Assembly: GCA_012519615.1 (NCBI GenBank)
Contig: JAAYPW010000097.1
Span: 1-37,628 of the forward strand
Length of the DNA: 37,628 nucleotides
Source of the DNA: Fusobacteriota bacterium
Lineage (GTDB): Bacteria > Fusobacteriota > Fusobacteriia > Fusobacteriales > JAAYPW01
Direction: 5' to 3'
In this document: piece after piece, positions 20,032 through 37,628 of the stretch
Position numbering within the stretch: the first letter of the stretch is position 1
How the letters are laid out: each line of letters opens with the position of its first letter
Notes under the pieces: model-generated
Told to the model about the DNA's origin: nothing
The model's database searches: none
Seen by the model: only the letters and a program-made list of their open reading frames with translations
Made by a program: the position numbers and the translations under genes

Positions 20032-20076
20032 AGAGGTGGTGAATGCTGTTACACCTATGTGTACAGTATAAAATTG
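20031..20076 (+). promoter_or_regulatory. SD-hairpin-start element A (upstream of RluD-like gene)
   Basis: gagaggtggtgaatgCTGTtACACctatGTGTACAGtataaaaTTG: SD 20034-20041, stem 20046-20054/20059-20066 (extendable to 20043/20069), 7 nt, TTG 20074. Confidence 0.6.
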
Positions 20077-28173: not shown

Positions 28174-28223
28174 AAAGGTGGTGTAGTATTAACATAATAT
28201 ATTACGTTAATACAGTTAATATG
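28174..28223 (+). promoter_or_regulatory. SD-hairpin-start element B (upstream of YueI-like gene)
   Basis: aaaaggtggtgtaGTATTAACaTAAtataTTAcGTTAATACagttaatATG: SD 28174-28183, stem 28186-28193/28206-28213, 7 nt, ATG 28221. Confidence 0.7.
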
Positions 28224-31524: not shown

Positions 31525-31560
31525 CACAAAAAACAGATTAAATTCTGTTTTTTGTGTTTT
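31525..31560 (+). terminator. Rho-independent terminator
   Basis: CACAAAAAACAGA - ttaaat - TCTGTTTTTTGTG, perfect 13-bp stem then tttt. Confidence 0.88.
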
Positions 31561-32249
31561 GTTTTTTTAGTGAATTTTTTATCATTGAAATATAGATTTA
31601 TAGAAATATAAATATATACTTTTTTAGTATTTAATCCTTTTCTAAATACTATTTTCGAAAAAAACATTATGAAAAGGAAGAAAAAAATAGTATAATTACT
31701 AAAAAAATGATATATAATTTTATAGAGCAAAATATTATTTTATAAAACTTAATGTGTAAAAAAAATACCTTCGTTCGCGCTCCTAGAATGGGAGAAAATT
31801 TTAAAAACAAAATTTAAATTACTTTAGTACAAAGATTAAGAAAAAATATAAATAACTATGTGAAAAATATAAATAGTTTAATCATTAGAAAAAAAGCAAA
31901 GGATCCAATTGGTATTTAAATATTTATAAAGAAGTAACACAGATAAATTAAAAAATAAATTAACTTTAAAATTTAAAAATCTTCAATCCAAAAAAAATAT
32001 GTGAAAAACTTAGAATGAAATTTTTAAACTTGTATATTTTAAATTAGAAATTTTGTATATAACTGTATTGATATTTATATAATATTTTATGTTATAAATA
32101 GGGCTAAAATATATATGAAGATGAAATTAATAAGAATATATATAAAGGCAAACATAATAAAAAAAATCTTATATAAATTTTAATGTGAGATATAAAAATA
32201 TTTCAAATAAGAAAAAATATATTGGTATTATTAAAAAGATATTATAAAA

Positions 32250-32278
32250 TTGAAAAAAGTAAAAATATAAGGTATAGT
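32250..32278 (+). promoter_or_regulatory. Putative sigma-70-type promoter upstream of cheR
   Basis: TTGAAA, 17 bp, TATAGT. Confidence 0.45.
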
Positions 32279-32310
32279 ATAATTAATAAATAATTATATA
32301 ATCAGAAAAA

Positions 32311-32366
32311 AGGGGGGTGTGGCAAAATTATAATATTATATAGCTGTAATTTTGCTAATTAATATG
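32311..32366 (+). promoter_or_regulatory. SD-hairpin-start element C (upstream of cheR)
   Basis: aggggggtgtgGCAAAATTAtaatattatatagctgTAATTTTGCtaattaatATG: SD 32311-32319, stem 32322-32330/32347-32355, 8 nt, ATG 32364. Confidence 0.7.
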
Positions 32367-33197
32367 GAGATAGAAGAACCTTGTATTTCTGAATATACTT
32401 TTGGGAAATTTGCAAAACTAATATACAGTGAAATAGGAATTTATTTACCTGTACATAAAAAGATAATGTTAGAGGGCAGAATAAAAAAAAGGATGAGAAA
32501 ACTATTGATTGATAGTTATGAAAAATATTTTAATTATGTATTAGAGTCAAATGATGAAAGAATAGAATTTTATAATGTTGTTTCTACAAATAAAACTGAA
32601 TTTTTTAGAGAAAACCAGCATTTTGATATAATAATAAAAAATTTACCAGAAATTATAAAAATTAACGAAAAAAATGATAAAAAGCTTTCAATTTGGAGTT
32701 CGGCATCTTCTTCTGGTGAAGAAGCGTATAGTATACTAATCACTTTAATGGAACATTTTGATATATTAAAAACATGGAAATTAAAAATTATTGCATCTGA
32801 TATTTCAACTGCAATGTTAGAACAAGGTAAAATAGGTGAATATTCTGATTACAAAATAGAAAACATTGATAAATATTATCTAGAAAAATATTTTTCTAAA
32901 TTAGGAGAAAATAAATTCAAAATTAGAGAAAATTTAAAAAAATATGTTATTTTTAAAAGAATAAATTTAAAAGATCAAAGTTACCCTTTTAAAGGAACAT
33001 TCGAAATAATTTTTTGTAGAAATATACTTATATATTTTGATTATAATACAAAATTAAATGTATTAAAAAATATAATAAAATATTTGAAACATAATGGCAT
33101 ACTTGTTTTAGGGACAATGGAACCATTGTCTTATGAATTAGAAAGGGAGTTAGGATTAAAGAAAATTGATTCTACAGTGTATAAAAAAATCATATGA
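32364..33197 (+). CDS. cheR: CheR-type chemoreceptor glutamate methyltransferase
   Basis: FYNVVSTNKTEFFRENQHF, SIWSSASSSGEEAYSILITL, IIASDISTAMLEQGK, FEIIFCRNILIYFD; ATG 32364 preferred over TTG 32352, which overlaps the stem. Confidence 0.93.
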   Translation: MEIEEPCISEYTFGKFAKLIYSEIGIYLPVHKKIMLEGRIKKRMRKLLIDSYEKYFNYVLESNDERIEFYNVVSTNKTEFFRENQHFDIIIKNLPEIIKINEKNDKKLSIWSSASSSGEEAYSILITLMEHFDILKTWKLKIIASDISTAMLEQGKIGEYSDYKIENIDKYYLEKYFSKLGENKFKIRENLKKYVIFKRINLKDQSYPFKGTFEIIFCRNILIYFDYNTKLNVLKNIIKYLKHNGILVLGTMEPLSYELERELGLKKIDSTVYKKII

Positions 33198-35907: not shown

Positions 35908-37628
35908 ATGGCTAGAAGAGAACAATCAATAGAACCAAACATTGCAGATTTAGCAAATAGCTGGTTAAAATCATACAAACTTGATTACAAATTAGAGCAA
36001 TAATCACTAAATGCAGAAATTGACAAAGCACTTGATGACTATTACTCAAAAAATGGCGGAACTGGTGGCAATCGTCCCGATGCAAAGTTATTGCTTCAAG
36101 ATAAAAATCTGAGCTTCTTCCCTATTCTCATTGAATATAAAGGCTACAAAAACAAACTTGTAAAACTTGACAATGAAGGACAGGTTGAGAATAGAAATAA
36201 TAAAAATCAATCTCACTTTGCTAACATAAACTCTTATGCAGTAAACGGAGCCGTTCACTACGCCAACGCTCTACTGCATCATACCAGTTATACCGATATT
36301 ATTGCAATAGGTATGACTGGATATAAAGATGAAGCAGAAAAAATCCGTTACGAAATTGGCGTTTATTATGTTTCTAAATCCAATCTTGGAGCAGGACAAA
36401 AAGTTGGTGATTATTCCGATTTCTCTTTTTTAGCACCGAAAAACTTTGATGCGTTTATTGAAAAAGTCAAAACCCTTCATCTTTCACAAGAGGAGTTAGA
36501 CAAACTCAAAGAGCAACGAGAAAAAGAGATTGATACAAGTTTGGTAAAACTCAATAACGACATTTACCAAAATGAAAAAGGGCTTGGCGATAATGACCGT
36601 GTCTATTTGGTTGCGGCTTCTATTATTGCAACACTTGGTATTCCCGGTAAAGTTGCACCTCTTGAAAAATCTGATTTAAAATCTTCTACCGAAAGAGGCA
36701 ATACAGACGGAGAAATTATCGTACGAAAAATACAAGCGTTCCTAAATGAAAAAGGACTTCCTAAAGATAAAAAAGATCTGATTATTAGAACGCTACAAAA
36801 TACATTAACCACCGAAAATATTAACAAAGTTGAAAAAGGCGAAAGTCAACTCAAAAGAGTCTTTACCAAAATCGTAGATGATTTAGGCATCTATTACAAA
36901 ATTGGTTTAACCACCGATTTTACAGGAAAGCTCTTTAACGAAATGTACGGTTGGCTCGGGTTTACTGAAGATAAATTAAACGATATAGTACTTACACCAT
37001 CTTATGTTGCTAAACTTTTAGCAAAACTTGCAAGGGTTAATAAAGATTCATATGTCTGGGATTTCGCCACAGGGTCAGCAGGTTTGTTAGTTGCAGCTAT
37101 GAATGAAATGCTTAATGACGCAAAAAATAATATTAATTCTCCAACGGAATTAACGAAAAAGGAAATAAAAATTAAGGCAGAACAATTATTAGGTATAGAG
37201 AAAATACAAGAAGTTTATATGTTAGCAATTTTAAATATGATTTTAATGGGAGATGGAAGCTCAAATATATTAAATAAGGATTCCTTAAAAGATTTTGATG
37301 GTAATTATGGTTTTGGAAAAACAGATAGCAAATTCCCAGCAGATGCTTTTGTATTAAATCCACCATATTCAGCAAATGGAAATGGTATGAACTTTGTAGA
37401 AAAAGCACTTGGAATGATGAATAAGGGCTATGCTGCTATAATTATTCAAAATTCGGCAGGTTCAGGAAAAGCTAAAGAATATAATAAGAGAATACTAGAA
37501 AAACACACGCTTTTGGCAAGTATAAAAATGCCAGTAGATATTTTTATAGGTAAATCAAGTGTACAAACTAATATTTATGTATTTAAAGTAAATGAAAAAC
37601 ATCATAAAGATGAAATGGTTAAATTTAT
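35908..37628 (+). pseudogene. Bifunctional restriction/N6-adenine methylase (type IIG/IIB BcgI-like or type I M-like), in-frame stop at codon 32, continues past window end
   Basis: SD aaagggg before ATG 35908; TAA at 36001-36003; same frame open to 37628 with PD-(D/E)XK-like RPDAKLLLQ...LIEYKGYK, motif I WDFATGSAGLL and NPPYSANG. Confidence 0.75.

Follow-up and report, generated by a model that had tools for sequence, protein, structure and literature searches.

The cheR start codon in the window (the whole 37,628-nt stretch of DNA that was analysed) is separated from its Shine-Dalgarno (SD) sequence by a hairpin, and this hairpin is real and a member of a class. Two observations go beyond the earlier note on this DNA: folding of the hairpin restores the spacing between the SD and the ATG, and the same layout recurs in about 6% of the genes of this AT-rich Fusobacteriales genome. 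We consider it very probable that these leaders represent a lineage-specific, genome-wide form of split or accommodated ribosome-binding site (RBS), in which the hairpin acts as a structural bridge between the SD and the start codon. The features of the cheR leader are as follows.

32313–32319, forward strand: SD sequence GGGGGTG of cheR, from the sequence; pairs with the anti-SD CACCUCC, including one G.U pair
32320–32332, forward strand: 5' arm of the putative bridging stem, from the predicted fold
32333–32344, forward strand: hairpin loop of 12 nt, from the predicted fold
32345–32357, forward strand: 3' arm of the putative bridging stem, from the predicted fold; holds the listed TTG 32352
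32358–32363, forward strand: tail of 6 nt from the stem to the start codon, from the sequence
32364–33197, forward strand: cheR, 277 aa, start ATG 32364, from Pfam and an alignment of the start with that of a relative

The SD of cheR is part of the run AAGGGGGG (32310–32317), and its duplex with CACCUCCUU has an energy of -11.6 kcal/mol; the anti-SD sequence is assumed, because the 16S gene is absent from the assembly. The surrounding intergenic region (31525–32363) has a GC content of 16.6%, yet carries this run of six G before cheR. The earlier note had described AGGGGGG 46 nt from the ATG, followed by a stem of nine pairs extendable to 13. Both descriptions were accurate: the run ends at 32317, and the arms GCAAAATTA (32322–32330) and TAATTTTGC (32347–32355) are exact complements, to which pairs are added outward (T20-A57, G21.T56) and inward (T31.G46, A32-T45) to give 13 in total. 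This layout of arms occurs once in the genome, and the stem has a probability of 0.98 at 37 °C in the fold model. The distance from the SD core to the ATG is 46 nt unfolded and 8 nt folded, the latter comprising the 6-nt tail and the TG at 32318–32319. No closer SD was found for ATG 32364, and no Rfam family matched the window at its gathering score.

The product of the gene is a full CheR (Pfam CheR PF01739, 2.3e-53; CheR_N PF03705 from residue 13). It had been suspected that the protein starts at ATG 32364 and not at the listed TTG 32352, and our results support this. TTG 32352 lies within the 3' arm and has no SD at a working distance, and the best-matching relative outside the genome (locus L003 of genome G001, of the same order) has a start no more than one codon away from ATG 32364; the ATG is therefore the better start. 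The relative in G001 has an ordinary SD, GAGGAGA, 7 nt upstream of its start, and the cheR leaders of distant relatives are ordinary or unclear.

Taken singly, the cheR hairpin is only moderately significant. The fold of the whole 84-nt region is not unusual (z -0.52), a perfect 9-bp stem alone arises in shuffles of the spacer with P = 0.028, and in dinucleotide shuffles of the 44-nt spacer that follows GGGGGTG, a free energy of -11.2 or lower with a working spacing has P = 0.0026. As a lone case it could be chance, because AT-rich non-coding DNA often contains hairpins of comparable size. The reality of the hairpin is settled by statistics at the level of the class.

We analysed 919 kb, about half of one draft genome, using ORFs that were called in this analysis rather than annotated. 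Most of the first 330 ORFs sampled had a strong SD 3–10 nt from the start; among those without a local SD, many had a strong SD 20–60 nt upstream and an intervening hairpin. Over the 919 kb, a distant SD with a hairpin was present in 34 of 179 genes that lacked a local SD, compared with 2 of 43 in G001. A strict scan then took starts with an SD of -8 kcal/mol or lower, at least eight Watson-Crick pairs, an effective spacing of 3–13 and no local SD, in ORFs of at least 100 codons with the start near the 5' end of the ORF. This returned 42 starts for 711 ORFs (about 6%, roughly one gene in twenty), compared with 7 under a mirror and 5 under an arbitrary, non-complementary pairing rule. None of 331 ORFs of G001 passed the same scan, and 4 of 619 did so in 14 other samples of Fusobacteriota; by eye one of these four looks like a genuine split leader. 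This plausible case (L212 12107 of G002, from another Fusobacteriales family) has GGAGGTTTAA, a 10-bp stem and the ATG of a 207-aa ORF.

Shuffling of the spacers gave a consistent result. A hairpin compatible with spacing was present in 30 of 38 genes with a strong distant SD and no local one, compared with 10.2 ± 2.2 in shuffled spacers; genes with a local SD did not exceed their shuffles (21 vs 22.5), nor did genes of G001 (2 vs 2.1; 14 vs 20.7). Further, we picked genes with a distant SD and no local SD blind to pairing, matched the 5' half of each spacer with its own 3' half or with that of another gene, and counted runs of at least seven Watson-Crick pairs. The genes' own halves were complementary in 32 of 40 cases, whereas 6.2 were expected and the maximum was 16, so that none of 2000 permutations reached 32; the mean run was 8.8 for own halves and 5.15 for re-dealt ones. 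Genes with a local SD gave 5 of 22 against 3.2. Strong hairpins were not more common in other coding or non-coding DNA of the genome than in that of relatives, which excludes a general enrichment of hairpins as the cause, and the excess therefore belongs to the spacers between SD and ATG.

The usual form of these leaders is AAAGGNGGTGAA, a stem of 8–15 pairs that encloses between a few and about 20 nt, then 4–8 nt and the ATG. Gaps between SD and ATG range from about 20 to 60 nt, with a few apparently longer, and the summed unpaired spacing clusters at 4–12 nt, compared with 3–11 for ordinary SDs of the genome. Each stem position is occupied by many types of Watson-Crick pair, and arms of different leaders are alike at a mean of 2.8 of 8 letters; selection acts on pairing and not on stem sequence across many leaders within the genome. 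A covariance model of the stems was dropped, because MAFFT failed to align the unrelated stems by structure. By eye, two of the few apparent members with long loops (L088 at 3174 and L090 at 2967) span 77 and 84 nt, and CTGCTAAC-type arms adjoin their SD and ATG; other long-span matches, which run into coding sequence, are probably false. Some leaders do share sequence: GGNGGTGAAAANCTGCTAAC is present five times within two mismatches (in 97 other genomes of Fusobacteriota the count is mostly 0 and never above 2), and GGAGGGAGTTAT seven times in the 919 kb. Exact copies of GGNGGTGAAAANCTGCTAAC lie on contigs C3 (18631–18650, reverse strand), C63 (3249–3268, reverse strand) and C73 (2864–2883, forward strand) of the same genome (G000); two of them precede long-loop hairpins and start codons, and the C3 copy (L015 - 1351) is not followed by a clear gene.

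The window holds two further elements.

28177–28223, forward strand: second element; SD GGTGGTG at 28177–28183, stem within 28186–28213 (11 Watson-Crick pairs), ATG 28221 of a DUF1694 gene
20033–20076, forward strand: third element, probable; SD GAGGTGG at 20033–20039, hairpin at 20043–20069, start TTG 20074

The hairpin of the third element is bulged (dG -10.7), and by eye the ORF at TTG 20074 looks like a pseudouridine synthase.

The class is functionally mixed and includes housekeeping genes, among them the essential gyrB and accC. By Pfam family, the members comprise a pyrH-like kinase, bipA, ftsA, murG, hsp33, ftsH, pheS, pheT, a folP-like gene, uppS, mnmG, ribF, accC, gyrB, two response regulators and cheR. 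The start codons that follow the hairpins are supported, because several profile matches begin near residue 1 (AccC at 1, MurG at 4, MnmG at 4). In other Fusobacteriales, 20 of 23 homologs have a local SD (-6.5 kcal/mol or better) 3–9 nt from the start, and the remaining three are either weak or probably mis-called. Scans of named genomes with CheR and GlgC found no genome of the same family, and the 21-kb stretch with the best GlgC match (L121, 66% identity) contained no candidate split site.

A hairpin between SD and AUG reduces the spacing from 27 to 11 nt in T4 gene 25, in which destabilizing the structure lowers initiation, and from 22 to 5 nt in gene 38 (PMC3014915). The leaders described here resemble these genes in that a hairpin between SD and start shortens a long spacing. 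Further, cheR has a distant SD (46 nt) with none closer, and its hairpin restores a spacing of 8 nt (mostly 4–12 nt in the class); selection on pairing is seen across leaders within the genome only, and not across orthologs. In layout, the class thus appears to be built like the split RBS of T4 genes 25 and 38. Each of those cases concerns one phage gene and one conserved stem; the present leaders, in contrast, lie on a bacterial chromosome before about 6% of ORFs, their stems are mostly unrelated, and their gaps measure about 20 to 60 nt, with a few apparently longer. In the literature searched, such a hairpin is documented for a few T4 genes only, and our search of the open literature, which included few subscription journals, revealed no genome-wide example.

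In the mechanism that we propose, the 30S subunit would pair with the SD at 32313–32319 while the 13-bp hairpin folds aside, so that the 46-nt gap would act as one of about 8 nt and ATG 32364 would reach the P site; the same device would operate before about 6% of genes. Folding thus apparently brings SD and start to a working distance. We infer that ribosomes translate the mRNA in its folded form and that expression would fall if the hairpin opened.

The hairpins might instead be regulatory, tuning initiation as a protein-binding site or a temperature switch, with the effect on spacing a by-product. Their site between SD and start would suit control, and unfolding would lengthen the spacing. 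However, one sequence-specific protein cannot read all stems, because they are mostly unrelated, and the mixture of functions, with housekeeping genes included, does not fit such control. RNA thermometers of the ROSE type also carry a hairpin in their translation initiation region, but there the SD is occluded, whereas the SD in the present leaders is not part of the stem. In the model, the cheR stem is still folded at 70 °C (P 0.91), a temperature at which the class median is 0.72. We regard regulation as an unlikely explanation. We also rejected the idea that the class consists of DNA operators, because many of the palindromes lie no more than 50 nt past the stop codon of the preceding gene and are placed between SD and start.

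The palindromes could also be remnants of a small mobile or duplicated element that landed in SD-ATG spacers and was tolerated because it folds. The leaders that share GGNGGTGAAAANCTGCTAAC or GGAGGGAGTTAT are consistent with this, as is the absence of the insert from most homologs found, but most stems have no common sequence, hairpins are not in excess elsewhere in the genome, and the leader consensus has no exact match in viral contigs; as a full explanation, this is very unlikely. Read only as a statement on how the stems arose, it does not conflict with the split RBS. It is possible, although doubtful, that small palindromic inserts spread in a wave through the SD-ATG spacers of one Fusobacteriales lineage and became neutral or useful through RNA folding, leaving the translation of essential genes dependent on structured split RBSs. 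Finally, the whole-region z value and the shuffle frequency of the 9-bp stem would suit a chance palindrome in AT-rich DNA, with cheR starting without the distant SD. The class-level excess (30/38, 42 starts, 32/40), the G6 run in so GC-poor a region and the lack of any other SD for ATG 32364 make this hardly credible.

SD and start finders that scan only about 5–15 nt upstream would call such genes SD-less or misplace their starts. In a survey, Fusobacteria and some other groups had stronger structure at the start codon in non-SD genes than in SD genes (PMC5397173), which may be due, among other possibilities, to hidden split sites. Further, with natural structured spacers available across a whole genome, the response of the 30S subunit to a hairpin between SD and AUG could be measured.

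Other structures are present in the window. Upstream of the cheR leader, the region 31525–32310 contains a terminator-like hairpin with oligo-T near 31526–31568, a larger inverted repeat, TTTTTTAGTA/TACTAAAAAA, near 31620–31706 and a GC-richer patch, CCTTCGTTCGCGCTCCTAGAATGGGAG, near 31769–31795. An ORF at 36091–37626, which runs off the end of the window, has an NPPY motif and resembles a restriction-system DNA methylase.
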